Assembly: GCA_037447655.1 (NCBI GenBank)
Contig: JBBHKE010001552.1
Location: 162,498 to 226,497, forward strand
Direction: 5' to 3'
DNA: 64,000 nucleotides
Origin: Zygnema cylindricum
Taxonomy: Eukaryota > Streptophyta > Zygnematophyceae > Zygnematales > Zygnemataceae
The notes beneath the pieces are model-generated. The model saw only the letters and a program-made list of their open reading frames with translations. It did no database searches and was not told the DNA's origin. This document shows positions 12,917 to 63,384 of the stretch, piece by piece (position 1 is the first letter of the stretch; every line of letters starts with the position of its first letter). The translations under genes were made by a program, and so were the position numbers.

Positions 12917-13094
12917 ACAAAACTGGAGACGAAGAGAGCGCCATTTTTCTTGAGAGTTTTTGGACAGAATCAGAAAATTACGGAAAGTTACTGAAGATTA
13001 CGGAAAATTCTGCCCATGGAAGCAGCCACATCCATATCCATTCTAAGTCTTTTTGTTCAATACTTTTCTCCTTCGACGAGTGAGGACTGGTGGA

Positions 13095-20769: not shown

Positions 20770-23700
20770 CCCCTCCCCTCTCTCTTTATATATTACCTGC
20801 AATCTCATGATTAGTTTTTTTCTTTACCATAGCATTTGTCGATGCTTTTCCATTAAGAAACAATCTTTGCCTAATTTTTCCTGTGGATATCTTTCTCTCT
20901 CTCATTTTGTATTTTGTCCTTATGATTCTTTACTATTTAAGAACTGACCCTAATTGATATGATAAAAGGAAACAATGCATGAGTTCGTGAAATGATTGTG
21001 CAGGGAATATTGCACTAAAATTAGTATGGAATGGCATTGGGAATACAAAAGAAACCTTGCTAACACAACACACACTAACAGTACTATAAATATACTCTTT
21101 TTTCACCTTTTACAAACGTCTCGTATCCAAATCAGTGTCGAATGGCCTTCGCAATACAATAAAATCCTTGCTATGACAATCTACTCTATTACTGGTGGAA
21201 AAAATGGAAAAAATTCCTTTCCCACCTTTCATATACGCCTCGGATCCAAGTTAGTGTTACATGGCAATGGCAACAAAAACCTTGATAGCGCAATCCACAG
21301 TATTAGTAGTGAAAAATTACTCTCTTCCTACCTTTCGTAAACGCCGCGGATCCAAGACGAGCCATCGAAGAACATCTTCCACAGTATACATTCGCGCATC
21401 AATGAGCCGTTGATGAAAAGCTCCATCTTTCCCAATTCCCTCTAATCGCCACACTTCATCTTCAAGAGAAGGAGGATAATGCTTTTTATACACTGCCCAT
21501 TATACCCACCTTTACAATTGTATAAGCCATTTTCTCATCATTTACAGTGAAGCAAGATTATCTTCGTTTCATTACATTGAAATCGGCACTGGCAACAATT
21601 CCCTACTTTCAGAACAAAACAAAAATAAGTGAACAAAACAAAAACCAACAAGGAGACAACGAAAAAACTGTAGTAAAAATAAAACGATACCGCTCTCTAA
21701 AACACATTTACGCCATAAATAAAAACCAGTGTGGATTTTAGTCTCTCACATTCTCCTCGGTTGTCTTTGACTGTGAAAGCTTCTGTTACAGCCTCTCGAA
21801 TACGAAAACCAGGAGGGCAAGTTCCTGGAAGGACTCTCAAGGCCAATCGAAACTTTCGGCTTCGCACCCAACTGGAATTGTCAGAAAATGACACATCACC
21901 AATAGTTCCCAGACCCTCCTGTTCACAATAAAACAGAAAGATCAACATTAAATAAGACTTGTACAAATATATTTGGATCAATGTGGACAATAACATCGAC
22001 ATTAGTAATGACGCTGATATTTATATCATCGTTAATAGTCCTCAGACCCTCCTGTTCACAATAATGACAGAAATACACAACGTTTGATTTGAATTATAAG
22101 AATGTGATAAGGTCGACATGGACATTAACATTGAAATTAGAAACATTGTTTGTACTAGCTTCGTCATCAATAGTTCGCAGACCCTCCTGTTCACAACAAT
22201 AACAGAAAGATTAACATTTGATTCGACTTGTAAAATGTACCAAGATTAAAATGGACATCAACATCCTCATTAAAAATAACATTGACTTTATCAATTCTGA
22301 ACTTGGAATTATGATTGACAAAGATGTCATCGTCGAATTAGTTTTAGGCATAAGCGTAAGTATCTAGACATTTATAAACACTGACATTGGTTTTGGCTAA
22401 ATACTGACATTTGGTATAAACATTGGTGTTGGCATCAAACGTTTGAGATAAGTGCAAGAGTTTTGTCAACCTCCTCTATTTTAAGCTTCTTCCTCATCAT
22501 AATAAAGACAAATCATGAGCAGTAAGACTATACCCTAGAAAATTGTATCCACTAGGTTGTGTTTAAATGACTTCCATACATTTATTTCACATATCATTTC
22601 ACTCTCCCAACTATTTCAAAATCAGACGCTTCACCTTCAGACTGATGATAATGTCCCCTGTGAGTAGTGGTCTTCTTCCTCCTCTCTCCCTCACAATTGC
22701 AGCTTCAAATTCCTCCACCTTCCACTCTCCATTCTCTGCTTGGGAAAAATCGCCTTCCAATGCTAAAAGCTCTAACTGAACGGCGGAGACAGGTCCTTCT
22801 AAGACTGTGACACCTGTCGCCGGGTCCTCCAGAGTAACCATTAAGGGCTTCCCATTCTCTGCTTCTATACGACTGCACACAAGAAGACAAGGAAGACATT
22901 TGGTATTCTTTGTTACAAAATTCTCTTGCGATTGAAATTCTGACGCGTATTATTAAGAGACTACAGACTGGAACATGCCTATTTGGTCCACATCCGAAAA
23001 AAAATTCATGCGCTTTAGAGGAAATCCGACCGACGGACTTTGCCATGTATCTTGTCATCCTTTTGAGAAAATGGGCAGAAACTATGAGAGACAAACTTTC
23101 AATAAACTAATAATACTACTCACCTTCCAGTGAACAAGGGTAGAGAAAGCTTGCTGCACAAAGATAGTCGCAGGAGTGTTTCTTCTTGAAAGCAATTTCC
23201 AGTAACAACCGATCCTCCACTATTACTAATAACTTTTTGTCGATCACTACAACATCACAAATGTAACAAAACCAAAAAAATATAAGATGCGCAGGTATTC
23301 AGGCAGAAATATAGCAAAGGGAAACTTGAGAACTGTAGACAAAGATTGTATGGACTCCAGAATGAACTTAAAAAGCAGAAAAGGTAAAGAAATGAAACAT
23401 TGAAAGAATACTAATTTGTAGGTGAAAGTCGGAATGATAAAACCAGGTGCAGTCAGGGAGTCATGACGACAAACTGGTAAAGAGAGATTAATTGATCACA
23501 AAAGCAGCCTTCACCCTTGACCATCCGGAATAAGATCTCTTACAGTCGGTCCAGTGGAACCCGGGTCCTTTTGTTTGACGGTGAACGTAGTGCCAGAGCT
23601 TTGTCTATTTCCTCTGCCACCTATTATAAGAAACAAAAATAAAGGAAAAAAAGAAAAAAAAAGGTAAAAAAAAGAAGAAAAAAAAAGGATCCTTTCATTT

Positions 23701-27250: not shown

Positions 27251-30200
27251 TCAACTTCGAAGCGGCGCACAAAGTAGGTGATAACATAGCCCGCTGTTAA
27301 CAGGTGGTAATATGTTTTCAGAGCCGGGGCTCTCCGTTTTCAGTGCATTGGACAAAGGGCGAATGAGAGGAGGAAGTAGAGACGCCGTGGGAGGATGTAC
27401 CGCGAGAATACGCTGACATTGACTGCAACATAAAAATAGAAAAAAATAAAGACAACGTGAAATTAGCGGCAATAAAATATACCGCAAAAACACGTTGACA
27501 TTGACTGCACAATGATACAAAATTAAGGCCAAGTGAAACTACACCGCCCATCAATATTAGAGTAAAGAAATTATTAGTCTAAATGTGAAATTATCATTTA
27601 GTGTAGGGGGACATGGCGGATTGTAGCTCAATCCTTTAAATAGTGTTATTAACACTACAATTTTCAGCCAAAAAAAAGAAGCGACCAAATTAGTAGTATT
27701 AACTCGAATAGCGATGGGTAGTGTAGAGACAGTACAATGCACAAAAAGTTACAATTTTAAAAGAATGTAGATGTCAAATTTTATAATGTTATACTTTATT
27801 ATTTTACAATATGTTATATAACACATGTTATATAGCCAATACCAGCTAACGTACATGATATTGTGGAAAGTCCCTCGTCATGCGACTGAATCTTGTGACC
27901 TCCTAAGCACTAAAACATTAGATAATAATTTGAATAGAATGCAAAAGAAATAAAAAATGAAATAAAAATTGAGAGTAGGACAAGATACCTGCAAGGTTCA
28001 CTGAATAATGTCCGATATGAAGAAAGCCAAACCTGAAAACACCAATAAAGAAATCGACAAAAAAATCAAAATTGCATGTCAGATTAATCACAAGCTTAAA
28101 ACAGCCCTATTTTAATATCCTCCAAGAGCTCAAAGCCTATAATTTAACTGGTAACGGAAAACTAAAGATTGGCAACGGCATAGGTGGGACAGAGGAGTGC
28201 AATTACAGAAGCCTCAAACAGATAAAAAGGGGAAGACAGATTTTCAGGCTAGATAACTGTTACACCGCCCATCGCTATTAGAGTTGGTAAACAGTTACCA
28301 TTAACACTTTATTAGAATTGACTACACTAAGTTATGGTCTGCAACGTAGCTCATTAAGGGCCACTTACTGAAATACTGTTACTAACACTAATTTGTGATT
28401 TTGGGTAAAAGAAAAACTCACTCGAATTAAAATGATTAACTCTAACAGCAACAAGTAGTGTACTGCGTCGAAGGACAGAAGGGGAACAGAGAGCTGAACA
28501 ATTACAACTTGCATTTGAACTGAAATAATGGCTCATTAACTGTATCCACTGCATAACCACAGCATCTGGTTGTGCACCATTGTATCTCCCACACCAACAG
28601 CATGTTTACACAAAACCCACCAGGAAATTCTCAAGTGCTGCGGACCCCATTGTCTGGTGGAGCACATGGTCAGCTTGTCCCTGCACAGCAAAAAAAAGGG
28701 AATATCTTCTCTCAACAAGCTACGAACCTTTAAAAGCATGGTGCGGGAAGGTACACCATCCATTGCTATTAGAGTTACAGCCAATTGCTATTAGAGTTAC
28801 AGCCAATTGCTATTAGAGTTACAGCCAATTGCTATTAGAGTTAGTGAATTATTAACGTAAACAATTTACTAGAATTGACTCCCCTAAATTGAGTTTTGTC
28901 AAGTGGCTCATTATAGGCTACAACCACTAATTCAATTTTGGATCAAAAAACTTAAGAGTGATTAACTCTAATAGAGATGGGCAGTGTAGCATGAAGAGGC
29001 TCAAGCAGCCCACTTTTCTGTATCTCTCCAATATAAGCATAGTTGTCCTTAACAGATGACTTAAGCTTTCAATACATGAATCCCTGTGCATTCTAGCGAA
29101 CACAGTAGAATAATGGTACATACCGATATGCATCTGAAGGTATAGTGTGCAGATGTGCCCCACGGATGGACATGAGAACCTTCCTGTGTCCGCGAGGCAC
29201 CCAATTATAAGATCCTGTGAATTCTTCTGAGCTGGAAAGCAATAGACTTAGCAGGCCACTCAGTCTATAAAACCTTTAAATTTTCAATCAAACATATCAA
29301 AATTTGGATCTTCAAATTTACAAAATAGGATTCTTTTGAAATCCGAAAACATTCAAAAAGGCTTAGGATTTTTTTTTTTTGAAGCTTAGGGCTTATTCCG
29401 GATTTCCCGTACCTCATGTGCAGCAAATACTGTAACTGCATCTGGACGAGCACTGCCAGCTGGCACAAGAGATATGGCAGCTCTGAGGACACCTGGCAAA
29501 ACGGCCTCAACCACTCCAGGAGCATCCCAACCGTCTTTACCATCTTGCTCTCCTCCATAACCTAATCCATCCTCTAATTTGGTACCATTCATAGCCTCAC
29601 CTGGCTCCAATTTCACCGCCCCAAACTGTGGACTGTCTGAACCTCCTACTCCTCCAATAGACATTCTGGTTTTCCCTCTTAAGCTAGGCTCTGACTGTTG
29701 TCTACCAGAACCTTCTCCCGACTGTTGAGACAGTGATCCAGTTCCCATCAATAAGGGACTTCCTGACCTTGAATTTTTCCCGCTTGCTTTCACCGGTTGA
29801 GTCGGATCTCCTGACAAAGACAATGAGTAATCTGCCCAGGAAGACCGAGAAAAAACTGAAAGGGAAAATTCTGGCACCATCTTCCGTACTCTTTCCAAAA
29901 CAACAAGGAGTGGACCAAACCGATGATCCACATTCTCACCGTTCTGCTTAACCGGTCCTTCCCCTAAACTGGGACTATGTACCCCCTCCTTCTTTACTAC
30001 ACTAGCTATACCAGGCATCCGCCAACTAGTATCTCCCTCCAGCGGCCCTTGAGACTCCCCAGCCTTTATTCTCTTCACAGGACTCGCAAAAGATGGTCCA
30101 TCCCCGGGACTTCGTGGTCGCTTGGTAGGACGATGAGGGAAGGTTTGTCGATGCTGGCGGTTAAACGCATTCAGCGTCAGGCTGTAGATTACAGATCAGC

Positions 30201-32219: not shown

Positions 32220-32545
32220 GGCCGTAGCTTTCCCAAACCTGCCAGCAGAAAGAAGCTGGAGAGGCTGAGATTCCGGAAATCCCTCAACCAGTTTTTAATC
32301 CTGAATTCCAGACGAGGCCTCTTGCAGCTGTAAAGTTTTAAAAACGGTGTTGTGGTGTGGACTTGGAGAGACGGGCAGGAAGCTGGAATTGGCGAATAGC
32401 TACGCACAGTCTGTAAGCTCGTGTCCGCTGCAAAAAATTCCCCTGTGGGCGGAGTTTCCCCAAAAATATATATATTACAATTATATATATTGAATTATAT
32501 TATGTGTATTGAATGGAATTAACAAATGTTCTATCAAGAGTACGG

Positions 32546-32878
32546 TACAGTACTGTAATGTTTGTACTATCCACACGGCAAAAAAAATTGGGATCGCAAT
32601 ATTTGTACTGTAAAAGCACTTTATTGTAATGCAAGAACAGCCCAAAAGAATCCGTACGAAAATGTACGATACCGGAACACGTATATATGGCCAACCATAT
32701 CCAAAACTCTGTATACGTATACAGACTTTTGGATACGGTTGGCCACGTGGCATCATGCCGGTATCAATTTTTCAGTGTGGACGGACGGTCGATGGGAGAA
32801 CCGGACCGACTAATTTCGGACAAGTCCGTACTCTATTTTGATACGAAGGCCCTTAGGACAGTACATTACTGTACTGTA
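32546..32878. mobile_element. palindromic inverted-repeat element
   Basis: Terminal inverted repeats TACAGTACTGTAATGT (32546) and, inverted, TACAGTACAGTAATGT (ending 32878): 15 of 16 match. At the centre lies a 56-bp near-perfect palindrome (32689-32744, arms beginning GGCCAACC, two mismatches) centred on GTATACGTATAC. No coding frame and no clear target duplication. Confidence 0.65.
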
Positions 32879-33192
32879 GACTGCAGGAACCAGTAATGAA
32901 AAGTAAGTACCCAAAAAAAAAGTACGAAATACTTGGAATTAGTCGGTTTGGTTCGCCTGTCGACGGTCGTCCCACGCTAAGAAAATTAAAACCGGCGCAA
33001 TGCGACCTGGTTAACCATATCAAAAACTCTGTAACCTGTTGCCGATATCTCCGCTCGTTGTCAGAGATGGCGTTAACGACAGTCCGTACGGACTCAGAAT
33101 TTTTCACGGGGTTGGGGGTAACACCCCTGAAAGCGTAGAAGCTGCCCTGAAAGTGTACTTTTTCATACGGCTTTTCTCTCAGGGTATCCAAC

Positions 33193-33395
33193 TACACCGC
33201 CAATCGTTATTAGCGTTAAGAAATTATTAGGGTAAAGAAAAAATAAGCGTCATTCATTCTAATTTAGTGCCAGGAGAGGTGGCAGATTATGGTCCACGTC
33301 CTTAAATAGTCTAGTTTATTCTATTTAAGGTATCAATATCAAAATTTAGGGGCGCCGATATAGAGTTCATAACTCTAATAACGATTCGCGGTGTA
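33193..33395. mobile_element. TA-flanked MITE, 203 bp
   Basis: The left end is TACACCGCCAATCGTTATTAG and the right end, inverted, is TACACCGCGAATCGTTATTAG. These near-identical 21-bp termini make this one of the best-preserved copies in the window. The interior has AATTTAGTGCCAGGAG and GGTCCACGTC. Confidence 0.85.
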
Positions 33396-33424
33396 CCGTA
33401 CAGTACCTGTAATGTACAGGTCAG

Positions 33425-33626
33425 TACACCTTGAATCGTTATTAGCGTATAGAAATTATTAGTGTAAATAAAAAATTAGCATCATTCACTCTAATTTAGT
33501 GCCAGGAGACGTGGCAGATTATGGTCCACGTCTTTAAATAGTGTAGTTTATTCTATTTAATATATCAATGTCAAAATTTTGGGGTGCCGATATAGAGTAC
33601 ATAAGGCTAATAACGATTCACGGTGT
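33425..33626. mobile_element. TA-flanked MITE, 202 bp, adjacent copy
   Basis: Left end TACACCTTGAATCGTTATTAG; right end, inverted, TACACCGTGAATCGTTATTAG. Same orientation and nearly the same interior as the copy 30 bp upstream, so the two form a direct tandem pair in the promoter of the plus-strand gene. Confidence 0.85.
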
Positions 33627-33749
33627 AGCGGTTAGGGGTGTCCACAGAGCAATTCCTTGACTGTTTCACTATTTTGGACGAGAGCAGAAGCCCTGCGTTA
33701 TTCCAATCTCATTGTTGCCTCCAATCCGTCTCTCTTCCTGTCTTCAACG

Positions 33750-36700: not shown

Positions 36701-39112
36701 AGCAGGAGCACGAGTTAAAAGGCATGTTCAGAAATTCATTAGCTATGGACTGAGGTGGAATTTAGCTGTTTATTGGTTACACTTGAGGTTTGTAAAGTTC
36801 TAGGCTAAAATGTATCATTGATTGGAATTGTATGCACACTGTTGCGTCTGACCACTACACCGCCCGTCGTTATTAGTGTTAAACGTTTTTAGGCAGTTAA
36901 AAGGCATTTTAACTTAATATTCGACTGTTGGTTTTTCTGGTTTGCGGCAGGCAATTGAAAGGTAACGATCTGACCTTTCAATGCTACGATTAAATATCGG
37001 AAAACTGTGTAACAAGAATTATGGCTCTTTGACTGCCTGAAAATTGTTTTACGCTATTAGTGATGGCATCATAGGGTTTTTTGTTATTTGGCAGCAGAAC
37101 CGATAACATATATTGAGGTTTTGGTGTTACAGTGTGGTTTTACAACTGACGAAGTACTTCGCAAATATGTGAGATATGCATTAAATGAGAAACCTTTTGG
37201 TCCGGAGCTTGTGGCGGATTTGGTTTATTTACGGAAAATTTCCTCTTTGGAAGACAAAGATGTGGCAGAGCTTCTAAACGAAGTCTCACGTCGAGTAGTC
37301 AAGGCAAAAGGTAATTGTATAATTCTTCCAATCGAGATTAGAGACAATGAATAGAGCGGGTTTTTTAACTCGTGAATGTGTGAATTACTGAGCTTGTATA
37401 GGTCATAACGATTTGGTCAAGCAATGGTTGGTTGTTTCTAAACGAGGTCTCATGGCGAGTAGTCAAAGCAAAAGGTAATTGGATAATTCTTTCAATCGAG
37501 ATTGGGAATTAATAGAGCGGTTTTATTAGTGGGTGAATGGGTGAATTATTGAGCATGTATAGGTGATAACGATTTGGTCCGGCAATGGTTGGCCCTCTTG
37601 GATGAGTAATGTGTTATCTTAAAGAAGACAGGGGGCTTTCTTCTTTGAAGGGTATGTGAAAGTTTGGAGTATCGGCCATTTTTTTTTACTTTTTAAGCAA
37701 CCTCTGTTCTGTAAGGTCCTCATTTGAAGATCATAGTGTCAACTTTAGAGATATTTCCCGGTTATTAATTGAGGGTAGTTACTATTTCGTTTTGCAGGAC
37801 CCATTGTTATGGATACTACTGGCATGACTGAGAAAGGAATTAAAAGAAAAGCATCAGTACAGGGTATTTTCACCAAGCTTTTTTACCTCTCTAAGGTAAG
37901 TTCTGTCTCAATGAGCTCTCGGTATTGGTTGGGACTGGCCATAATCAAACGTTGAATCAGTGGGTTTTGTTTTTCGAGTATGGATTATTTTAAAGTGGTT
38001 GCGATCCAGTTTGAGTCAATTTCATCTTGTAAATTGTTCAGATAAACAGTGTGAGGAGTAATTTGCATGTGTCACGTGTTGTCCCAAAGTATCATTGGTT
38101 ACAATATTGTGGTCAAGTTTGGTTATGGATGAGAAATTGTGCTGAATTTTATGTCAAAATTCAACGATTTAAGAATGACTTGGCATTCGAAAGAATATTG
38201 GTCTGCCTTTTACCGATAATGGTTAGTAATTTTTTTATTTCAGTCTGATCTGGAGCGCTACTTTATCGTATGGAAATTTAACCAAATGAGATTGTAAATA
38301 AAGATAAAGTTTCATGTTAGCATTTTGAGCCGAAAACTGTTACGACGTCACTTGTTCCCCTGAATGTGTCAGTGATTCCATACTTCATCTTATTGTTTGT
38401 AAGGAGGAATGTGATATCTCGACATAAAATGCAGCTTTTTCTGTTGCTGTTTTGTTGTAATTGCTTCTAGCTTTCGGTTTGTTTTGAACATAAAAACTGT
38501 TAGTGGAATAATGTGAAGCTGTTCTATGTGCAGTTAGAAGACTTCTGTTCAAGCAGTGCCCACGACCTACTTAAGATCAAGTCGATCTTCGGCATCACGG
38601 AGTATGATTTTAGACCCTTTCCCTTTAATTTCTGTGTTATTTCTTTGGTATTCAATTAGAAACTTTGGGTGTTTTTTTTTCTATTGGGTTACTTTTTTTT
38701 TAAAGTGACCTATCTGCTTGTTGAAGCATTTTTTCTTTGACTTCCGTTTTTGGAGGAGGTTTGTTCACGTGACCAAATCAATGCTGTGAATTAAAAGTGT
38801 CGTGAAAACCCTGAAAGCTTGAAATACCCGAACTAAAACAATCTAAAGTTTCTCAGGCTTTGAAAATACACAAAGAGCTGTGAAGGGTATATGCTTATGA
38901 TGTGTTCCCAGATCTGGAACTGATTTCTCGAATGCAATTTTTTTTATTTTTTTTTTTACCTTTTTTGCAGTGAGGACGCAGAAAGTATCAAAATTGAGAC
39001 TCTTACAGGAACAGCTGATATCGACAGTTTGGAGAAGTTAATGACGTCAAAACCGGCAGTAGGAGGAAATTTATCGGAGGACGAAGACGATGACTCAGAA
39101 GCTGATTTATGA
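33750..39112 (+). CDS. plastid-type single-TM protein of unknown function, 6 exons
   Basis: Exons: 33750-34250, 36560-36658, 37133-37310, 37798-37895, 38534-38601, 38971-39112; all GT-AG and in phase, 361 aa. The ATG at 33750 (TTCAACGATGGCCT) was preferred over an in-frame ATG 31 codons upstream because it starts a Ser/Leu/Thr-rich stretch (1-75) that reads as a plastid transit peptide. An acidic block follows (about 88-105), then one membrane helix (about 131-155) and a basic stop-transfer KAKRRR. Residues 168-361 are soluble and helical (LLCESLDEYLTAKR, GFTTDEVLRKYVRYAL, VAELLNEVSRRVV, FTKLFYLSKLEDF) and end in an acidic tail. I recognise this layout from plant proteins annotated as armadillo-like and chloroplastic, but I know no proven function. 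A role in plastid membranes is inferred. Confidence 0.82.
34251..36559 (+). other. intron 1 of the plastid-type gene
   Basis: This 2.3-kb intron contains TTTAGGG-like repeats right after the donor (34460-34510), a full MITE (34694-34907), diverged MITE pieces (34915-35100, 36105-36275) and a GAGAGGG-type purine tract (35370-35545). The ORFs crossing the purine tract reflect its composition only. Confidence 0.7.
34694..34907. mobile_element. TA-flanked MITE, second subfamily
   Basis: About 214 bp with CTTATCGCTCTTAACG at the left and, inverted at the right, ACCGTGTATCACTATTAG. The inner part (GATTGGCGGTC, GTGTGCAC) differs from the 33193 type but matches the element at 6608-7781 and the fragment at 8830-9022. 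Confidence 0.65.
36856..37066. mobile_element. MITE in intron 2 of the plastid-type gene
   Basis: The left end is TACACCGCCCGTCGTTATTAG and the right side carries CGCTATTAGTGATGG. About 210 bp, ending some 65 bases before the exon starting at 37133. It supplies much of that short intron. Confidence 0.55.
37240..37600 (+). repeat. splice-site echo: donor of exon 3, plastid-type gene
   Basis: The end of exon 3 with its donor and about 110 bases of intron (GTAGTCAAGGCAAAAG|GTAATTG, true end 37310) is repeated once, 164 bases downstream (copy exon end 37474). The exon part of the copy carries a few substitutions but keeps AAAAG|GTAATTG. Confidence 0.85.
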
Positions 39113-40723: not shown

Positions 40724-43700
40724 CTACTGGTGAGAAAGAGTGGCGAGAGTGAGAGCCAAAACTTTAACTCCATCCTCCATCGCCTGTTTCGATGCAAACT
40801 CATCCGTGCGATGGCTATAACCTGTCACAAATATTTTCAAACAAACAAAATAAAACGATTCTTTAAACAGTATTGTACATCGCATCAAATTTTTGAAAAA
40901 TGTCACGATGCGATACGCACACAATATTCATACGATAGAGCGATACACGATATCCAATATAAAATATGTAAATACTAAATAGTGTAGAAGTAAATGCTTG
41001 AAGCTCAAGGTAGGATAAAAATATGGTCACTGCCCATCTTTACTAGAGTCAATCACTATTATCCGGGTGAGTGTTTTTTTACCCAAAATCATAAATAAGT
41101 GCTAATAACACTATTTAGGTAAGTGGTCCATAACGAGGAAGTTTTCCCAATTAGAAAAGTATTCGGACAAAGAGGGTTTGAAATAATATTAAAAAAAAAA
41201 CAAATTAAAACAAAACAAAATTAGAAAAAGGGGAAAAAAAGGAGGGAGAGATTAGAGACTTACCTTTATAACATGGAATAAAAATCATTCCCATGGGTGC
41301 CACTCTGTCCCATACACAAACTTAAAAAATGAGAAAAATTAGAAAAAACCAAAGAAAAAACTCCCATATCCGCCTTCCTCTACCACCCCAAAGGAAATTC
41401 CAAAAAAAACATCTCTCCGCAAAAATCCACCCAAAAAAAACATCATCAAAAAATAAAAACCAAAACAACAAAACAAAACCACACGAAACAATCAAAACCA
41501 AAAAACGAACAAGGGAAAAAACATTTTTTTGACATTTGAATTTCATTCGAACAATGCATTCCCTTCTTGAAAAATGCAAATATTGTAAAAATTGCAACAA
41601 AAAAAAAAAAAAACTGCAAAACCACAAACCAGTGGCAGAGAGGGATTTGAGAAGTAAATGGAGGGGACGAAGGGGGAGGGGCAAAGGCGACGTTATTGCG
41701 ATAAATTGATTTTCCCAACAAATGAGGCATTTACAAAATAAAAAATTTGCCCACGAGATCTCTTTCTCTCTCGATCCCTCTCCCTCATCCTCCCTCTCCC
41801 TCTCCCTCTCCTCTCTCACTCTCCACCTCTCTCTCCCACCTGGCATGAACAGTGAGACGTGATAAGCTTGACTCCCTCTCTCTCTGCCTTCCATCACTTG
41901 CTCCCTTCCCTCCCTCCCTCTCTCTCGCTTTCTATCACCTGGCCACGAAGGGAGAGTCATGATAGGCTGGACTAATCTATAGCTCTCCCTCCCTTCCTCC
42001 CTCCCCTCTCTCCCTTTCCCCCTCTCACTCACCTGGCCATGAAAAGTGAGTCGTCATAGGCTCGCCTCCCTCTCTCTCTCTCCCCTCCATCCCTTCCTCC
42101 CTCCCTCTGCTGCACTCTCCTTTGGACATGAACAGTTCGTGATATGCTCGCCTCCCTCCCTCCCTCTCTCTTCCCTCCTTCCCCCCATCCTCTCAACACA
42201 CCGCCACCCCCTTGCCTCTCTCCTTCACTTTCTCTCTCTTTCTCCCCCCTTCCCTCCCTTTCCTCCATGTCTCTCCCTCTCTCACCTGGCCATGAAGAGT
42301 GAGTCGTGATAGGCTCGACTGACCATCCTCCGAGAGTTCAAACCCAATGTTTCGACGGACGACTCCACCGCTCTCACTATCCCCTCGTCACTTTGAGCCG
42401 GAGGATCCGCATTGACCACCTCCAATTTTTCTAACTCCACATTTCTTTTCTTCGCGATGTCCTTGGCGGATTCTATTATGGAGCTCACGACAACGTCACG
42501 TCGCTCGCCGTCGATGTCTCGAACATCTGCACCCTCTCTCTCTCTCCCCAGAATCGAGCATTTGAGTTTTCCGTTTTTTTGAGTCCTTCAAGTTTCTCAG
42601 ATTTGAGTGTTTTGGGATTCGAGTTTCTGAGATTTTTGAGTTTTAGCTTTTCATGGTTCTGAGTTTTTCAAGTTTCTGACAATTCACAAGGTTTTCGAGT
42701 TTTTAGGATCGCTGAGTTTTTCGAGTTTGCGGATCTCCAAGTTTTTCGAGTTCTTGCGTTTTTGAGTTTCCGAGGTTTTAAAGCTCTGGAGTCTTTCAGG
42801 TATTTGAGTTTTTTGAGTTTCTGAACTTCTCCAGCAACTGACTTTTTAAGTGTAGGGATGGCGAATTCTCAACAACGTTTTTAGAATTTAAAAGAAAAAG
42901 TTTTCCAATTTCACATTAGTTCTTTCTTTTCTGGAGAAGATTTTCTATTGGTATTAAAACTGCCTCTCCAACTCATTTTCTGGGCGCATATTAGGACTTT
43001 TGTTAAAATTAAGAAATTGAAAGATAAACAACCCTTACAATTCAAATTCGATTTCGAACAAAAAAAATGACTGGCTTTTGCCAGTGAAGTGGGATTTGCA
43101 ATTAAAAGTAAGGAATCAAAAGATAAACGAAATTTTCAAACAAAATTTCGAGAGTCGCGATCAGAAAACAACAAGTTTGAGGAACGGGAAATAACATAAA
43201 CTCTAATAGACATACACGTAATCTCCAAGTTCAGAGGAAAAACTTCCAAATTCTTTGAAGAAATTCCAGCTTCTCTCGAAAGTTTTCAAAATCTCTAATT
43301 TCAAACTTCTCTGAAAAAACGTCCCAACAATTTTTGAAAAAAATTCCAGCTTTTCTGCAAAACTTTCCAACTTCTGCGAAAAAGTAAAGCTTTCCTTCCA
43401 GCTTCTCTGAAGATTTTCTCAGCTTCTCTGAAGATTTTCTCAGCTTCTCTGAAATTTTTTCTCTACTTCTTTGATTTTTTTTTCAGCTCCTCTGGTTCTT
43501 TTTTCCAACAAAGCCAAAAAAAAAATCCATCTTTTCTCCCCCTTACTTTCCTCTTACCTCCTTACCTATTTCCAGATGTGCCTCCCGGGGAACACTATTT
43601 ATGGCTCCCGGATAAAGCTCCATTTTTCCTGTGCTTCCCAAATCCATTTTCCAAATAAGCTATACATCATTACACAAGAGAGTAAAACAATTTTTTAGTA

Positions 43701-46700
43701 TTAACGCAAAATTAGATAAGATATTTTAGATTTTTTTTATTTTTTTTAGTTAATAACTTCGTTCTATAAACTTACCCACAGTGACCTGGATAACTTTCAA
43801 GCCCTAAAATACCCTTAAAAACCCTCTATTTGTTTTTCTACACTTTTTAGCGGTCAAACGCCGAAAAAGACCAGAAATTACTAATTTTGGTATAAACTCT
43901 GAACTGTGATCCACAGTGTGATTTTTCTAAACATATCCCTTTCAAAATACATGTGTGTGGGTGTGTGTGGGTGTGTGTGGGTGTGTGTGTGTGTGTGTAA
44001 ATATATACAGCATTTCTTCCAATATTCGAACCAACCTTTCAGTCTGGCCTTCCGTCTCTGAGTGAAAGGCCAAACTGAATGACAACCTTTTGCCAAGTAA
44101 AATGAACAAGCTCTGCCAGAGTTGACTAGTGAACTTCGAACATCTGTCGGACACAACAGACTCATGTAAACCATGGAGTTCGTAAATATGCTGAAAGGAT
44201 AATTCGCCACCCGAGGTGCGGTAATGACGGTTTTAATGGTGAAGAAACTATCAACAATCACTAAAATAGCATTCTTTTGTCGTTTCGTGTCTCAAAGTCG
44301 TAATGAAATCCAAGGAGGTGCTTTGACAAGGACGGGAAGGAATGGGTAATGGTTGCGATAATCCGGCTGGTGCTTGGCGCGAAGGTTTTACTCTCTGAAG
44401 ACATCACACTCCAAAAACGAATTTTGTGACATCATGGGCTAAACTTGACCAAAAATGCCTGACGCAAGAACTCAAGAGTCTTGAGTTCTCCACAATGTCC
44501 CCCGGATGCAGTGGAATGATTTTCCTCAATGAGTAACATGCGAATTTCTCTCACATGGGGAATACATCGCAAATCAGCATTGCCTAATCGAATAATACAG
44601 AAGACCATCATCTACTTGGAAATGCCAAAGCCATTTGTGAAATAAAGACGTAATGTCCCCAGAAGGTCTCTGTAAATGAAAGAGAATGAGACCCATGAAC
44701 GAGTCATATCAATATTCGACCGGAATGTGCTGAAGGAAATTGTTATATATGACCATCGATATATGAGCTAAATGGGTTCTTCTGGAAAGGGCGACAACTA
44801 GATTTAACTGCCCAAGCACGTGAACAACATCAAAACTATACTCCTGTACCTTCATAATCCATCACGCTTCTCTTTTGTTTGGTTGCGTCAAAGTCGGTAG
44901 GTAAACAACCACATGATTATCAGCTTCAATAACAAAATTTTGAACAATCAAATGTTCGCTGAATGCCCAACGCGTGATTGACTGAAAGAAATTCCAAATG
45001 GTGTACCATATAATTTTTCTCACCGGCAGACAATCTTCGGCTTACTATGCCAAATGAGGGGGCGATAATAATAGGCAGGTTTACAACTATTAAAAACTGA
45101 TAAGGTTGAAGTATCCACAGCCACGTCATCTTCTTCCTTGATCGAGGCGAATACCAGAATGTCTTGTTTTTGGGTCAAATCCTGTTCTACTTACAGAAAA
45201 GGAACAGAGATTGTTCAGGGACATTACAAGACGTTTACAAAAATGGTTACTGAATTTTCTTTTGTAACATCGGTTAAGCATTTTGACCTGCTGTGCATCC
45301 CTATGTTCGTGAAATCCGACGTCTCATCATCGGAGAAAATCACTCTAAATATCCACGGGTCATTGAGGGGAGAAGACAAGAATTATTGAGACAGGCATTT
45401 GGTCTCCGAGTATGGCAAAGATGTCACAAACTTTTTTGTGATACCTGCCAAAGGGTCAAACCCTCATGACAAGCACCAACTGGGCTTTTACAACCGTTGC
45501 TAATCCCTACCAAGACATGGCGAAGTATTTCCTTGCATTGGCCTCCCAGACACTAAAACACAAAACGCATTTTTGGTCATCGATGATAAGTTTTCAAAAA
45601 GAGCCAATTTTTTCGCCACCAAAACCCAGACACTAAAACGCAAAATGCAATTCTGGTCATCGATGATGAAGTTTTAAAAAAGAGCCCATTTTTTCGCCGT
45701 CACCATACCCTCAATTCGCCGATTTATTTTTTTCGGCACATCTATAAACTCCATGGCTTAACGGAGTCCATAATGTCCAATAGAGATTTAAAATTTACGA
45801 GTCAATTTTGGTAAAGTATGTTAACTATGCTCGGTACGCGCTTAATGTTCAGTTCGTTCAGTTCCGCATTCCACAAGGAGACGAACTGTCCAATTGAGGG
45901 AATTAATCGGACTTTTGGTGTGAATAGAAAGGAAACATCAAGGCCCGGCATGTTAAGGTGCGAACTTTGGTTATATGTTTTCCTAAACCGAAGAGGGGAG
46001 AAAAGGGCATCGAGGAAAGGGAAACGAGGGAGTAGGAGGTGGTGGAATGAGAGGAAGGGGAGGAGGAGAGCAAGTTTGGGTGTCCACTGACCTGTGGTCC
46101 CCACTGTGTGTTTTCCTAAACCCAAGAGACTTAAGAAGTGAGGGGAGAAGGCGGAATCGAGGAGAGGGAGACTGGGAAGTAGGAGGTGGCGGGATGAAGA
46201 GAGGAGGGGGAGGAGGAGGGAAAGTTTGGATCTCCACTGACCTGTGGTTCCCACTGTGTGTTCGCCTAAGCCCACGGAACTTGAGTGGAGAAGGGGAAAA
46301 GGAGGCATAGAGGAGAGGCAGACGGGGAAATACAGGGTGGCAAGTGAGGACGGGAGGAGAAGGAGAGAAAGATTCTGTCTTCACTTACCTGTGGTCCCCA
46401 CTGTATCCCGCGATCCTGTAGCCACCACGTGGCGCTCCACGGCCAGCGCCAGCTCAGCACCCGCCAGACCCGCATCGTTTCTGGGAGGGAGGGAGAGGGC
46501 GAGGGGAAAGTAAGTCAGAGAGGCAGGGAGAGGGAGAGAAGAAGGGGCGAGGAAGAGGAAGGGGGAGAGGGAGAGGGAGAGGGAGAGTGAGAGGGAGAGG
46601 AAGAAGGAGAGGGAGAGGCAGATTGAGAGAGAGAGGGAGAGGAAAAGGGAAAAGGAGAGGGAGATTGAGGGAGAGGGAGAGGTAGAGGCACTACGAGAGG

Positions 46701-49700
46701 GAGAGGGAGAAGGGGAGGCAGATTGATGAGAGGAAAGGGAGGGAGAGGGAGGGGAGAGGGAGAGGGAGAGGGAGAGGGAGAAGGAGAAGGAGAGCGAGAA
46801 GGAGAAAGAAAGAGAGGGACGAAGTGGGAGAAGGGGAGACGGAGAAGGAGATTGAGCTGGAGAGGGAGAGGGAGGGCGAGGACGACAGTGTGGGAGAGGG
46901 AGAGGGAGACGAAGAGGCAGAGGGAGAGGGAGACAAAGCGTCAGAAGAAGAGGGAGAGAGAGGAAGAGGGAGAAGGAGAGGGAGAGGGAGAGGGCCAGGG
47001 AGAAAGAGAGAGAGGGACAGAAAGGGGAAGAGGGGGAGACAGAGGAAAAGGAGCGGGAAAGAGAGAGGGAAGGGGGAGGGGAAGATGGGGAGGAGAAGAC
47101 AAGTCAGAGAGGGAGGGAGAGGGAAAGGGAGAGGAGGAGAGGAAGGAGGAGAGAGAGAGGGAGCGGTAAAGAACGCCAGTGCCAGCATAGCAACAAACCG
47201 ACATCGTTTCTGAAAGGTGGAGGAAGGTCCCCAGATGGTTGGCAAGGGAGAGAGGGGATGGGGGGAAAGGAGGAAGGGGGAGAGGGAGAGAGGGAGATAG
47301 AGAGATTTATGATTAATGTATAAACTGACCTGTACTCCATGAGTAAACCACCGGCATGTCCTCCTCCTCCCTTCATTTTCACTATGAGAGCTGCAGGAGC
47401 AGCTATGGCAGTCACGACTCCAATAGAAATTCCTGAAGAATTAATGTAGAGAGAGGAGAGAGAGATTGTCACAGTGAAAGAAAGAAAAGGGCATGAAGGA
47501 CAATCTCTACCTTCTGTTTCCAAAACTGGGCCCTGCTCTATGTGGAGTTCCACAAAAGCAGATAGTTTTTCCGGAGGAACTAAACTCAGTTTTTCCAGAG
47601 CTTCAGACAGAGATGAGCGAGGAGAGAGAGAGGAAAGAGAGGAAGAAAAGAGAGGAAGGAAAGAGAGGATGCCCCAGTGAAGAAGAGGAGGGAATAAAGG
47701 AAGGATCTCTACCTTCTGTTTCCAAAACTGGGCCCTGTTCTATGTGAAGTTCTACGAAAGCTGACAGATTTCCCGGAGGAAACACAACAGTTCAATTTTC
47801 CAACGATTCCAGGTAGAGTGATAAGAGAGAAAGGCGAGAGAGAATAGAGAAGAGAGAGGAGAGAGAGGATGTCACAGTGAAAAGAAGAAGGGGATGAGGG
47901 AAGGATCTCTACCTTCTGTTTCCAAAACTGGGCCCTGTTCTATGTGGAGTTCCACAAAAGCTGACAGTGTTCCTGGAGGAATCACAACGGAGTTCAGTTT
48001 TTCAAGAGCTTCCGGATAATCGGCTGAGGCAGCCGCTTCCGAGAAACTGATGTTGTTTTTGTCCACCGCATTTTTTAAAATTTCAGCGAATCCTTTTTGA
48101 TTCGCAATCATTCGACTGAGAGACAAACGTGAACAGTCGATAAAAAAACATGTTAATCAAAAAGTGGAACAATTAAGGAATTAATTAACAAGTTAAAATA
48201 TTAATAAAAAAATGTCGTTGATGCTGATCTGAGCTTACAACACGTAAACAGTCTATAAATAAATACAATAAATTGAGAAAGATAAAGCTTGAAGCTAAGC
48301 TTGTGGCTATGGATGCAATACACACTAATATGAGTGTAAGTGTAAATTATTGACATTCTACGAGTCACAAATGCAATGGAATATAATCCACGAAAAGAAA
48401 CATTTATTATTATTTTTTTTGCCATTCTAGCCTTCACAAATAATCTAAATCTAATCTAATAATTTATTTTCAAGTTTAAAATTGAAGGAGTTTAAGCCAG
48501 AATGCAATGCAGTTCACAGGAAAAAAAAAATTATAATCATAATAACTATACATATATACATATATGTTACCATACAAAAGTAATCTCCGATAATCTCACA
48601 AATAATCTCCAAGTTAAGAAATTAAACAAACCTGCCAAGGCAGCCATAACCAAATCTTGTCGGTTCCTCGGAAGTAAACATTAAAACTTCAATCGTTCTT
48701 TTTGGGACAAAACCAACCCTAAGAAAGTGGCAAAACACAAGCGAAAAAAAAATGATGCCGAGTCAGAAAAATAAAATGCAGCCTGTCAAGGGGAAACCAC
48801 TCAGAGCTTCTCTCATCACAAATCCTAGAGAATTATAGAGTTGCAATTCAAATCTTTCCCCAATTGTTCTATCCTCACTTCTTAAGGGCAGAAATGGCTT
48901 CAATTGCTCCCAAAACTCCAAGAACTCCGTCGTACTTCCCCGCATGAGGAATTGCATCAGTGTGGGACCCCGTGAGAACATAAGGGAGAGAAGGTTCACT
49001 CCCTTGCCTGCAAAAATTATCAATTATTTTTCATAATAAAAAATCTTTCTTCATTCTTCAATAGCTTGTGATATTAGTTTGTGACAAATTTTTGAAATCA
49101 TTGATGAGTTTGTATGGACCAAAATGACAAGAATGAAACACAGTAGTCGAAAAAACTTCCAAATGAAAAATGCGAAGGAAAAAATACAAAAAATACAAAA
49201 AGTTAGAAAAATCAAGCGTGAAAAGAATAGACGAAGTGTTGTTACTTGTCATCGTTTCTAAAGAAATAATTAAAAAAAAATTGCCCACCAGCTTCCAAAA
49301 ATGTTTCCGATGGCGTCTTCACGGACCTCCAGCCCAGCAGAAGCCATAAGTGAACGCACATACCTGGAAACTTCCAGCAGAGAGAGGGGGGGAGGGAGAG
49401 GGATTGGGAAAGAGAAATGAAGAGAGTGGGAGAGGGAAATGGAGAGAGGGGAAGAGAGGGGGAGAGAAAGGAGGGAAGGAGAGGGGGAGAGAAAGGAGGG
49501 AAGGAGAGGGGGAGAGGGAGAGGGAGTGAGAGAGGAAGAGGTTCTCGTGATTGGTGTATGATGTTTGCACTGGCAATGCAAAGGTCTTCCTTCATAAAAA
49601 CAGTAGATATTGTTCTAAAAATCACTGAACCTTTTTTCAAAAAAACACAAAAAGTAAGAAAATCACCGTAGAAAAGGATACAAAAAGTAAAAATAAAAGT

Positions 49701-52209: not shown

Positions 52210-55200
52210 ATGGCATTTCTCGGCTATCAAATTTCTTCTCTCTTGGTCGTCTTCCTTGCTGTCGTACGGCAGGTTTCTGCTCAAATCCACTTGGAAGGTG
52301 GGCTATGGAGTTTCTGCCCCTTGCGATTTTAAGTTTCAAGTGTTGTTCATATCTGTACGATTTAACAAGAGGGATTCAAGTTTCAAAGTACTAACAAGTT
52401 TATTTGCAGTGCTTCCGTGGTTTTGAGTATTTCGAATTGTTGCCAAGTTTGTGCGGGTTTAGTGGCATGTACATTTGAAAAACATGCAAAAAGAAGTGGA
52501 AAGAACAAAAAAATAAAAAGGAAACAGGGCGGTGAGGTCATTATTCCACACTGGGCAGGCTCTAAAAGTACCAGTATGTCTTGCAAAGTGCAATAGATTT
52601 TTTTAGAAAACGTACCTTTATGCAATAAAATTTTTTTTTTTTTTCAAGTACTTTGTGAATGCGGCCTTTCGAGGTTGCTATTTTGCATTTGACAATGTCG
52701 TCCAATGAAGTGTTTTTCATATCATATTTCATGTCTGTCTCAGTTCAGTATGTTTTGCATTACTTTTACCCAACAGCCTTAGCTGGCGCTCCATGTGGTC
52801 TAATGTACAAAAATCCCATGCCAAAGGAAAAAGAAGAGGAATAGATTTTATAGTCCAGCTAAACATAAAATTTTAATCGATTTTTTCTTCCAATCTGTTG
52901 AAAATGAACGGAATGGCTCAGGCAGATAAGTGTTTTTTTCCTCTCATTTCTGGCTAGCAGAACAGCTAAAACTTAAATGACACGTGGCAGCAATTTTGAC
53001 ATTTGGAGATGAAGCAAATCAAGTCCTTTCGCTTGTCTTAATTGGGATGATTGATGCGGCTAGTCATTTACAGAATAATAAAAATATTGATGGAACATAG
53101 GAATTAATTTGCAAATGTCCATGCAGGAGGCACTCATGAGAGCACTATTCTTGGAGACGTTCAAGACATCCACTACGACAAAGTTATCGATCCGACATTG
53201 AAGCCTCTTCACTTGGCTGGTGAGCAAGCGGTCTGCATTTGTTCTATTTTCCTACCTTCGTATGATGAGATCTTACAACAATTAAAGTCTTATCATTTGA
53301 GCTTATATGCAAATGAATTACTGTAGATACAACGCAAAAACACCATTATTTTAACACAATGCAAAGAGAATAATTTGCATTCCAGAGATTCATGTGAAAA
53401 TCTGGAAAAAGATGAACCTATCAGATGTTTTAATCTGAGATCTGGACCTGTGCAATGCTATCTGGCACACCGAACGTTTATTCGTTTTAGTTGCTGATAG
53501 TCATATTAATGTTAGATTGGGAGTTTGAAAAAGTAAAAGAACTTTTCTAAGAATATTACAAAATGGTGAAAATGGAATACAGATCTCCCGGGCTTCACTC
53601 GCAGTGTATATGAAAGAGACCACGCTCTCATCACCACAGAAAGTCAAGTATATGGTCCCCTTCCAGGATGGTAGGAACATCCTCTTTTCGGACCATAACA
53701 AAAAGCAAGCTTCTTTTATTTTTCATGCAAAAGAGTGATAGATTGCTGTGCCATAATGTAGTAAATGGCGTCATATTATTTAGAGTGGATGAGTACATCC
53801 TCTTTTCAAACCATTTGATGTAATTAAGAAGCGGAATTTTTTTTTTAACTTCAGGCAGAAGGTGGTAGATTGCTTTAATATTAATGCCGTGAGGTTGTAA
53901 ATGACTTCACTTTATTTTACAGTTGATGAGGTTTATTTCCTGTACGGTTCTCTTCGAGGATGGGTGAACGTCCTCTTTTCAGACCATTTTATGCAACAAA
54001 AATCAATCATTTTTTTTACTTTTCATAAAAGGGTGGTAGATTGCTTTGAGAGGACTGTTTTCTATGTTGCCATAGGATAGTAAATGGTTTTCACATGTTT
54101 TGGAGTGAACAAGGTTTATTTCGCTTCATATTGTAAAAATTGTGTATATATTAAGTTGTTATTTTATTATTACATCATTGTTTACGTATTATTATTTTTG
54201 TATCAAACTATTGTTTAAATATTTAAAAAAATTGTTTGTCAGGAAAAACTCTATTGGAGCATATCTCATCACACCGGCCATGGGAGCCCAATTTGTGATG
54301 TATATCGCACAAATGTCAGGTGAATAACCAGTCTTATAGTTAATCTATGCTTAATTTAGTTTTTGAGTCTAAAGTTTAGTTTCCAAGCTTAAAATTTAGT
54401 TCCTAAGTTTAAATTAAGTTTCCAACTTTCATTCAGTTTTCCGAGTCCAAAATTTAGTTTCCTAGTTTAATGTTTAGCTTTTGAAGTCTAAAGCATAGTT
54501 TCCAAGTTTATGATTTAGTTTCTGAGTGTTTAAATTCAGTTAATAAGTCTAAATTTCAGATTCTAAGTTTGAATTTCGTCTTAATCTGTGCAGGAAACTC
54601 TTCTTCTGCTTCCCCAAGTCCGGATGTGGAGAGGTAATTTAAAATCAAAAGGAAACGAAAAGGAAAAGAAAAAAAAATGAAAGAAAACGAAAACGCTTTT
54701 CTATCTTAATTTTGTGTTTTTGACTTATAATATCATAAAAATGTTGCAATTCTTGAGGAGTAGGAGCGAATCAGAAGCCTTCAAAATCCTTAAATAAATT
54801 CAGGTGTCTAAAGTTTGGATGCATGAAGCCATCCAATGGGGTAGAACTGGGTTATAAATGGCATTATAAAATGGGTAGAAAAGGGGTATAAATGAGGTAT
54901 AACTGGGGAAACAAGATTTCTTGTTTCTGTTCCTTTTGTAGGTTGGTATTTGTGGTTAAAGGAGACATCATCTTTACTGCCGGATCGTTGATGGTGCGAG
55001 AAATTAAGGTAAACAATTCCTATATTTTGATTTTTTCCAATTATAAATTCCAATCAACTTAAATCCCATTTTTGGGATACTGGAAAACATTCCACCTCAC
55101 TTAAAGAATGGTGTGTGAGAGTTCAGATATTCGACATGCAATCTTTGAAGAAAACTGTCTAAAAAGTTTTTTTTCGAGCAGGTCGATGGCTACGCTTATG

Positions 55201-55442
55201 TCCCTCCCCATCAAGAACATGAGATCACCTCCTCTTTTGGGGCATCTATTCTGGTGGTGGAAAGAATGTGAGTTTTAAAAACCCTATTTATACCCTATAT
55301 ATGCCTATATATACCTATATATACCTATGTATATTGATATATCTCTCCTCCTCCCTCTCCCTCTCCCTCTCCCTCTCCCTCACCCTCTCCCTCTCTCCTC
55401 TCTCTCCTCTCTCTCCTCTCTCCCCTCTCTCCCCTCTCCTCG

Positions 55443-55515
<73 letters not shown>

Positions 55516-58500
55516 TTATATGTTTTGTTGTTCCCCCTTTTTTGGGGCCTCGTCAATTTTGGGTGACATCCACATAAATTAGAGTGAATTGCACATCCTT
55601 TTTCTCTTTTCCTTTTCTATTCCTTTCCTCTTTTTATGTGAATTTCTATACACTCATAAAGAGTGTGGTTTTATGCTTATTTATCGTCCACACTATTTGA
55701 TTTGCATTATGTAGCTTACCAATCTTCTCTTTTATCATCTTTGGTAAGAATTTTCAGGTCTTTATTAAGAGAATAAAGCCCTCATGCATATTATAGTTAA
55801 AAAAAAGGTAGAAAAGGGTAGGGAAAAAAAGGGTAGGGTAGAAAAGTTCTCCCATATTTTTGGTGACAGGTATACTGACTGTTAAAAGAATGGTCTAAAT
55901 AACCCACCTTTACGAGAAGCCCATAGGCTTTAATTAAGGAGAAAAAAATCTTATTTGAAAGGAGAAAAAAATATTTTTTGAAAGAGAAAATGTAATATAC
56001 TTATCCGTACTTCCATCAAATAGATATACTGTGAAAGAAGCCGCCCACTCATGGGCCACTATTTAGAAAGCAACCCTATCTTTAAGGAAAAAAACCTTAA
56101 AACGTTTTTTAAAACAAAAAAAAACATTTCCCAAGAAAAAACTCTTTTATAAAATGAATTTCAAAAGAAAGTAACCCTATTTTGGGTGGGCAGATACACT
56201 ATTAAAGGAGCCCCCCATGGATTGGCTCCCGAGGTGGTAGTGGGAGTAACCAGCGAACAGCCCCTTATCGAAGTTCCAGGAGAGGTAAGCTTTATTTTTC
56301 ATCCCTCTCCCTCATTTACTCCCCCTTACCAAAGTCCCAGGAGAGGTAAGCTTTATTTTACATCCCTCTCCCTCTTTTACTCCCCCTCATCAAAGTCCCA
56401 GGAGAGGTAAGCTTTATTTTACATCCTCTTTTACTCCCCCTTGTCAAAGTCCCAGGAGAGGTAAGCTTTACTTTACATCCCTCTCTTTCTTTTACTCCCC
56501 CTTATCAAAGTCCCAGGAGAGGTAAGCTTTATTTTACATCCTCTTTTACTCCCCCTTGTCAGAGTCCCAGGAGAGGTAAGCTTTACTTTACATCCCTCTC
56601 CCTCTTTTACTCCCCCTTATCAAATTCCCAGGAGAGGTAAGCCTTTTTTACATCCCTCTCCCTCTTTGCCTCCCCCTTATGTCCCAGGAGAGGTAAGCTT
56701 TATGTTACATCGCCCTTCCTCCACTTTGTTTTCCTCCCCATTTTTGTTTTGTGTTTTGTTTTTTTGTTCGTTTTTGTAACTGAAATTTATTGATTCCCAA
56801 CTTTATTGTAAAGGGCGTTCTGAAGGGATGATAAAAAAAAGAGTAAAGTCGTTTAAATAGAATGGTTTTACAACCTAGAGACCCAATTAATGCAACATAA
56901 GGACTATTGCTTACCTGATTAGTGTTCTGTACTAAATGTTATTTTTTTCTTCTTTTTTTTCTTTTTTTTTTGCAGGTTTTTGCCCTTCGTAAGCTTCTCC
57001 CGACTGGTCCTGCGTATGACTTTAACATCCATGTATGGAATTCCTTACCTCTTCTTCCCTCTTCTCCCTCTTCGTACAAAATCAACATTCACCAAACATT
57101 TTCAAAATCAACATTCAAAATCAATAGGCATAGTAATTTGATCATTTTGATGTTACAACATAGTGGGGAGAGAAAAAGTGGTGGGGTAAAGAGATGTGGA
57201 AATTTGGATGTTGAGCAAGAGGGAGAGTGTATCCGAGAGCGAAATGGAGTTCTGTTCTTTTCTTTTTTTTGTATTTCTGAATGGTCAATAAGTACATACA
57301 CTTCAAATTCGAGAGAAAAAAATTGAGTCAGTCACGAATTGTGTTGGTTTGCATTTTTGCTTTTGCTTAACTGCTGGCGCCTAATTCTATGTTGAAAACT
57401 GTAAAGAAGCGATATTTTTTTTTGTCAAAAGCATAGCATCAACTCCATTAAATGTATACCCTGTCAGTTACTTTTTCATAATTATCACCCATTTTAATTT
57501 CCCCATTTTTTAAGATGGAATTAGAACAAATGACACTTTTATGATTGAGAACACGAACATTTCTGAAAGTCACAGAATCAATTTTGGTTTAAAATTCTGG
57601 TTTTTACTACAAGTACTCAGCTATGGGATATTTATGTTTACTGTCAGGAAAAGAATCCATTCATTTTTTTTTTGTCATTTTTTTTTCCCTCTATGCAGGT
57701 GATGGATTTTCAGCCTGGGGAATATCTCAATGTCAAGGTGATATTTTCAGTTACTTGGCCCCACGTTTTTTTAACTTAGGAAATTGAAACTGATTTTTCA
57801 AAATATACAAATGTTTTCGCTCTCAGAAACTAGTTTGGCCCCATTTTACTTCGTCGAATTAACGGGCACTCATGGAAAAATCGAATAGTTTGTCGTAATT
57901 GCAGACTATAAGTTTATGTCGTCCAAGACTTATTTGACATTATCTCGCATGACATTGTGTCAATCAACACTGTCAGCTTCAAAATAAATGTGCATCTTTG
58001 TTCACACTAACTATGGCTCCGCAACGTTTTCACTACACCGTGAATCGCTATTAGCGTGTTGGTCGCTAATTGAGGTACCCTGTTTTTTTGGGCAAATTCT
58101 CAAATAGAATTAGACATTCTAAATGTTCCTACACGTTATTTGAGGTGTTCCATAAAACTAATCACGGTAATTTGTAATGTTTTCATTGCTTGTGGCAATT
58201 TGTTTCAATTTTTGCACTAATAGTTTGACAATATCTACCGTAATTACGCTAATTTCTAACAGAATTCACAAGAATTATGGTAACTTGCACCAATATTCAC
58301 ATTAACTATGATAACTTGTAAAAATATTCACACTAACTACAGTGTTTTTACCAGTGTTCATGCTAATTATGCTAATTGCAGCATTATTCACACTAATTAA
58401 ATAGCTTGAAACAAAGCGACTAGTGATGATAGTTTGTACCAATATTCACACTAATTTCAGTAGTTTTAACAGTTCTCGTAATAATTGCAGTACTTTCTAA

Positions 58501-63144: not shown

Positions 63145-63384
63145 TCGATAGCAAAAATCTTTGAATTTGCTCCCTTGAACATTAAGCTATAAAGGGTCAA
63201 AGTTGACCTTTTGTACATAAGCACTCTGGGGGAGAAGCACCTACCTACCAAATTTTCTAAGTCCTCGATAGCAAAAATCTTTGAATTTGCTCCCTTGAAC
63301 AGTAAGCTATAAAGGGTCAAAGTTGACCTTTTGTACATAAGCACTCTGGGAGAGAAGCACCTACCTACCAAATTTTCTAAGTCT
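63145..63384 (-). repeat. 120-bp tandem duplication with open frame
   Basis: Two nearly identical 120-bp units (63145-63264 and 63265-63384). On the minus strand each is 40 codons without a stop, reading for example RCFSPRVLMYKRSTLTLYSL, and each contains TTTGGTAG|GTAGGTGC, a plausible donor. It may be another splice-site echo of an unrecognised minus-strand exon, or simply a repeat. Confidence 0.7.

Follow-up and report, generated by a model that had tools for sequence, protein, structure and literature searches.

Tandem copies of exon borders, mainly on the donor side, in the introns of four neighbouring genes of Zygnema cylindricum

In a 64-kb stretch of Zygnema cylindricum DNA (contig JBBHKE010001552.1, positions 162,498 to 226,497; hereafter the window, 64,000 nt), eight exon–intron borders of four genes, CBP60, an ARMH5-domain gene, UAH and UGlyAH, are repeated in tandem within their own introns. 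The extra copies, here called echoes, hold the exon edge, the splice signal and adjoining intron sequence, are diverged, and mostly keep the splice site intact; donors are affected at seven borders and an acceptor at one. The duplications are independent of one another, and the echoes are probably tolerated survivors of ordinary local tandem duplication.

Seven genes of the window were modelled by hand, by reading the sequence and checking the frames: RimP-like, zinc-finger-like, CBP60, MED27-like, the ARMH5-domain gene (the plastid-type gene of a preliminary description made from the same sequence), UAH and UGlyAH. The models gave 50 introns and 100 borders. Each border query, composed of 30 nt of exon and 50 nt of intron, was matched to its own intron and compared with 300 shuffles (lowest attainable P 0.0033). 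In the strict masked form of this test 83 of the 100 borders were covered, 17 being skipped as low-complexity or too short. The eight borders named in the preliminary description all matched their own intron (z 11.9 to 34.6, P 0.0033 each, 84–95% identity) and were the top eight border-crossing matches among the 83, which bears out the observation from which that description started; one match that does not cross its border, at the CBP60 donor 18015 (z 14.0), also ranks among the top eight. Two more border-crossing copies, in the zinc-finger-like and MED27-like genes, were absent from that description and were found only at lower stringency. The coordinates of all ten are given in Table 1.

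Table 1. Arrays of border copies in the window, with the real splice site and the copies found (PWM, position weight matrix score).
Feature	Positions	Strand	Real splice site	Copies
UGlyAH intron 8 donor array	56261..56721	+	donor 56284	seven, 54-61 bp apart
UGlyAH intron 3 donor array	53651..54048	+	donor 53670	weak echo at 53964 (PWM 1.8), 293 nt away
UAH intron 6 donor array	47472..48010	-	donor 47913	two, 200-202 bp apart
UAH intron 8 donor array	45992..46404	-	donor 46389	two, 147-150 bp apart
UAH intron 10 donor array	41802..42323	-	donor 42286	three clear copies
ARMH5 (plastid-type) gene donor duplication	37272..37592	+	donor 37310	one, 164 bp on
CBP60 donor array	21018..21356	-	donor 21332	two, 106-119 bp apart
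CBP60 acceptor array	21896..22280	-	acceptor 21918	two, 133-135 bp apart
Zinc-finger-like gene, possible older donor echo	10500..10750	+	donor 10559	z 7.9, 62% identity
MED27-like gene, possible acceptor echo	27395..27557	-	acceptor 27422	z 7.1, 82 bp away

In the UGlyAH intron 8 array tandem units stand at the 3' end of the exon, all seven copies carry a canonical GT donor (PWM 8.9–10.5), and the ten bases GAGGTAAGCT are identical in the real donor and six of the seven copies. Both copies of the UAH intron 6 array include about 110 nt of UAH exon 6. The clear copies in UAH intron 10 each hold about 37 nt of exon edge and sit 253, 347 and 446 nt away amid spacers that are CT-rich on the plus strand, with two broken copies and one partial copy in addition. 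The UGlyAH intron 3 array is the weakest of the eight, and its other alignment contains no exon sequence. The copy-to-copy distance of 54–202 nt, given in the preliminary description for every locus, was recovered at six borders; the arrays at 42286 and 53670 fall outside it. The sequence AGGT is present at six of the seven donor borders, the exception being 53670 with TGGT. At the UAH acceptor 46480 visual inspection had suggested a copy at 47170-47213, but the border tests did not recover it, their best matches lying elsewhere in the tract (z 3.0–4.2).

Cross-comparison of the eight units revealed nothing shared beyond 12-nt matches, and from this mutual unlikeness it follows that the duplication events were independent, as had been proposed. 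A single repeat family, mobile or introner-like, was rejected on the same ground.

Tandem duplication is frequent in the window, which agrees with the local duplication process invoked earlier: Tandem Repeats Finder (TRF) listed 104 rows, some covering one array more than once, and sixteen tandem arrays were counted inside genes (offsets 30–360, threshold 40 bits), seven of which include a donor, one an acceptor, and eight of which are purely intronic. Random placement of 16 units over the allowed positions gave 1.7 donor and 1.8 acceptor arrays (donor P 0.0008). Over seven thresholds the P value for donor arrays ranged from 0.0001 to 0.0047, and that for donors and acceptors jointly from 0.0017 to 0.061; at 32 bits the arrays at 10559 and 27422 were scored as intronic. 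An earlier count of 14 arrays, made without the array at 42286 (best offset 344) and without the dispersed MED27-like repeats at 28259 and 30999, contained six donor arrays versus 1.6 expected (P 0.0024); the count of 16 takes in 42286. The part of the earlier proposal that linked the process to CT/GA tracts did not stand, as such tracts occur in 5 of the 16 arrays versus 5.6 expected (P 0.71), and they are unsupported as a driver of duplication.

Whether borders are repeated more often than other intron sequence was also assessed with windows from intron interiors, 5–11% of which contain copies across the tests. Under strict masking (z 10) copies were present at 7 of 41 donors versus 44 of 924 interior windows (P 0.004), at 2 of 42 acceptors versus 57 of 902, and at 9 of 83 borders of both kinds versus 101 of 1826 (P 0.046); the corresponding intergenic windows gave 13 of 561 and 7 of 560. 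The sensitive setting (z 5), which covers 89 of the 100 borders, gave 8 of 44 donors versus 59 of 546 (P 0.11), 2 of 45 acceptors versus 60 of 541, and 10 of 89 borders versus 119 of 1087 (P 0.52). Without masking (z 10) the figures were 7 of 50 donors versus 39 of 721 (P 0.024), 1 of 50 acceptors versus 39 of 684, and 8 of 100 borders versus 78 of 1405 (P 0.21), donors and acceptors differing from each other at P 0.059. These P values are rough, because the interior windows overlap one another and Fisher's test treats them as independent; they are biased against an excess, since windows inside the border arrays were kept in the null; and all enrichment P values are optimistic, since the window had been nominated for the pattern. 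Masking bias against acceptors was rejected as the source of the asymmetry: the adjoining 60 nt of intron were masked to 17% at donors and 14% at acceptors, and the unmasked rerun keeps the asymmetry. The class of borders as a whole is thus not clearly above interior windows and only the donors are raised, so that the clear border excess by which the preliminary description proposed to tell its pattern from ordinary tandem duplication was not obtained. Its view that conserved exon edges are what makes the duplications visible also fails, as seven of the eight arrays persist when the modelled coding sequence is masked, only that at 42286 being lost.

Most echo donors retain strong canonical sites, in line with the rows of competing splice sites first described. 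The median leave-one-out score is 7.75 for the real donors, and the 95th and 99th percentiles of intronic decoy GTs are 5.24 and 7.55. Among 18 echo donors, a set that excludes the two broken and one partial alignments at 42286, 17 exceed the 95th and 15 the 99th decoy percentile on a matrix to which the real sites contributed. Use of any of the 18 would lead to a frameshift or a stop, an outcome that nearly any stretch of intron would give. At five of the eight borders, three donors in UAH and two in UGlyAH, the proteins of a close relative (P0121 for UAH, P0001 for UGlyAH) are colinear with the product of the exon-proximal site. By eye, the exon-derived parts of the copies carry amino-acid changes or stops in UGlyAH, in UAH at 42286 and in CBP60 at 21332. 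Independently of these comparisons, the second copy of UAH exon 6 (47472-47640) is seen by eye to possess a pyrimidine tract and an AG, and is a candidate in-frame exon of 90 nt.

These data are probably best explained by ordinary duplication followed by survival of what splicing tolerates. Units of about 55–300 bp would duplicate often and independently in the introns of this genome, and one such unit, in UGlyAH intron 8, would have expanded into a minisatellite. A unit spanning the 3' end of an exon would leave the real donor next to the exon and place the extra donors downstream in the intron; as long as splicing keeps to the exon-proximal donor, the product would be the same and the intron longer. 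When a unit spans an acceptor, a competing AG would be placed upstream of the real one, which would be harmful more often, so that survivors would be scarcer. That arrays are common with or without a border, half of the sixteen being purely intronic, supports ordinary duplication, and duplication with survival accounts for the duplications themselves, their independence and the scarcity of acceptor arrays. Further points in its favour are that borders as a whole do not clearly exceed interior windows, that the units are unrelated, that donor arrays outnumber acceptor arrays by seven to one, that use of any of the 18 echo donors would break the frame, that the proteins of the relative fit the exon-proximal donor at five borders, and that exon-derived parts of several arrays carry amino-acid changes or stops. 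What we infer from the sequence is that the copies are neutral, that events took this order, that tolerance acts as a filter, and which donor this species uses.

Several results weigh against this explanation. The tolerance filter leaves unaccounted for the fact that donor arrays rival intronic ones (seven versus eight, with about 1.7 of 16 expected); the donor excess may be due to chance, the window having been chosen, to a process directed at donors or to selection. In the extra copies of six arrays, mean identity is 0.91 in the splice core, 0.82 in the exon part and 0.65 in the intron part, with the core ranking at the 77th–96th percentile of its own unit in all six (combined P 0.0055). In the last 54 nt before the donor, the UAH exon 6 copies show six copy-specific changes, every one at a third codon position and silent by eye (chance 0.0002 to 0.0018).

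The last three observations would be expected if the copies were kept for a function, as decoy donors that dock the U1 snRNP or as an unproductive-splicing switch, with the exon edge as part of the signal, and so would the 17 of 18 echo donors above the decoy 95th percentile. We nevertheless consider this improbable: alignment of the border region, by which the copies were found, favours a conserved core; the same appearance, in UAH exon 6 too, would result from gene conversion by the real exon; the 54-nt limit was chosen after seeing the data, two more copy-specific changes within 60 nt being non-silent, and both copies degrade farther upstream, copy 1 with a 2-nt gap; and the frame break on echo use has the trivial expectation already given. 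About equally improbable is the extended form of this idea, in which donor ends would be duplicated or retained several-fold over other intron sequence, the core and exon edge of the copies would be under selection, forming standing rows of decoy donors for U1 docking or unproductive splicing, and a mark bound to the exon would pick the real one of up to eight near-identical donors. A mutational process that prefers exon 3' ends, for instance transcription-time breaks at 5' splice sites repaired by duplication, would account directly for the donor-array count (P 0.0008) and for the strict masked donor result (7 of 41 versus 44 of 924). It is nonetheless unlikely: at the sensitive setting the donor comparison reached P 0.11, the window owes its choice to the pattern, the gene models were built by hand and the arrays are few; moreover, no breakpoint signature was shown, and CT/GA tracts are not involved.

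Intron gain by border-crossing tandem duplication, with splicing between the units, would be consistent with the AGGT at six of the seven donor borders (not at 53670) and has precedents in the available part of one report (PMC4974935). It is very unlikely here: the gene models show no added intron, the copies extending introns that those models require in any case, and the proteins of the relative are colinear. Least probable of all is assembly error, for which no supporting point was found: false copies would be near-identical, and the matched parts are about 68–88% identical over the eight arrays, with differing indels. Ordinary duplication and survival is accordingly retained as the preferred explanation.

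The preliminary description knew of no described feature of this kind, and in this it was mistaken. In the human IFI6 gene, according to the portions of the reports available, a minisatellite supplies multiple splice donors and downstream repeat units serve as donors (PMC4526556, PMC2572611). The likeness, as far as those portions go, lies in a tandem repeat at the 3' end of an exon with a donor in each unit, a feature found here at 56284, the other arrays having one to three copies; the IFI6 copies were shown in use, whereas the present arrays are known from DNA alone. The IFI6 unit is reportedly about 12 bp long, whereas the units here are about 55–300 bp, diverged, and distributed over four neighbouring genes. 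Human introns arising from tandem arrays and alternatively spliced are reportedly, by the title, the subject of a 2007 PNAS study by Zhuo et al.; splice sites are tandemly repeated at introns in both cases, those introns being alternatively spliced by that title, whereas the arrays here were read without transcripts. Variable internal tandem repeats across exon–intron boundaries of human paralogs can alter splicing (PMC2812944). They likewise span exon–intron borders but, in the portion of that report available, are recent, variable and located in segmental duplications, whereas those described here are diverged and lie in genes that are not known as duplicated. In a potato RdRp gene an intron was gained via a tandem duplication crossing an intron–exon border (PMC4974935), a border-crossing duplication in a green plant with the layout of the CBP60 acceptor array; to judge from the same part of that report, a new intron was formed there, whereas existing introns are lengthened here, mainly on the donor side. 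A search of the open-licence literature for splice-border duplication by name, or in algal or moss introns, returned nothing relevant with the terms tried. The arrays thus belong to a known kind, tandemly repeated splice sites, and what deserves note is how densely they occur in one 64-kb window and that they lie mainly on the donor side.

The genes of the window are plant-type and their introns long; the GC content of the window is 33–54% per 2 kb. The models of UGlyAH, UAH, the ARMH5-domain gene and the zinc-finger-like gene read through in frame. The CBP60 model is without a start, the first exon of the RimP-like gene joins out of frame, one acceptor of the MED27-like gene was not found and its intron was excluded from the counts, and an exon may have been missed between 34250 and 36560. 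Pfam matches comprised three calmodulin-binding domains in CBP60, an M20 peptidase in UAH, a cupin in UGlyAH, ARMH5 in the product of the plastid-type gene and DUF7912 in the RimP-like protein; no Pfam match was obtained for the zinc-finger-like or the MED27-like protein, and the labels RimP, MED27 and zinc finger are our own. Rfam and tRNA scans of the window gave no match.

In a tree of 21 proteins UAH pairs with a Logan-derived protein (87% identical), the next partner being a EukProt transcriptome protein (support 100/98). With midpoint rooting this group is joined, separately from the land plants, by a row whose locus prefix suggests Spirogloea (88/92; other forks have better support). 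Among named matches, those best for UGlyAH were from mosses and one clubmoss (66–67% identity). By its own sequence the window would probably be assigned to a streptophyte alga, on the evidence of one protein (UAH). UAH (50312, minus strand) and UGlyAH (52210, plus strand) lie head to head, 1.9 kb apart, and belong to the same pathway of ureide breakdown. The Logan relatives P0121 and P0001 have the same longest contig (3653 nt), and 17,765,579 nt is given for both Physcomitrium rows (P0124, P0009); on account of these equal sequence sizes the pairing may be conserved.

Other repeats were observed in the window. A 2-kb tandem duplication at 13094-17182 (92.5% identity, offset 2053) repeats the last CBP60 exon including its acceptor, and one intron of the zinc-finger-like gene contains, at 11093-12149, some 1 kb of repeat that is almost wholly of the CTCTCCC type. 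Recognized partly by eye, a short element whose motif resembles gctattagcgtta is dispersed over intergenic and intronic positions, at 33193-33630, 28259-28364 and 28818-28921. A recent tandem duplication of 120 bp (63145-63383, 98% identical) lies outside the modelled genes, and a few telomere-like CCCTAA repeats were seen by eye near the 5' end of the RimP-like gene (about 6305-6332).

The choice between competing 5' splice sites depends on position, strength and bound proteins. SRSF1 is described as favouring the intron-proximal site (PMC5585400); in these arrays the site so favoured would be the wrong donor. Rows of near-identical donors are a natural test of exon-proximal site choice where sequence strength cannot decide. 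The donor excess, if genome-wide, would also reveal a way in which introns grow, with splicing itself as the filter or the driver.

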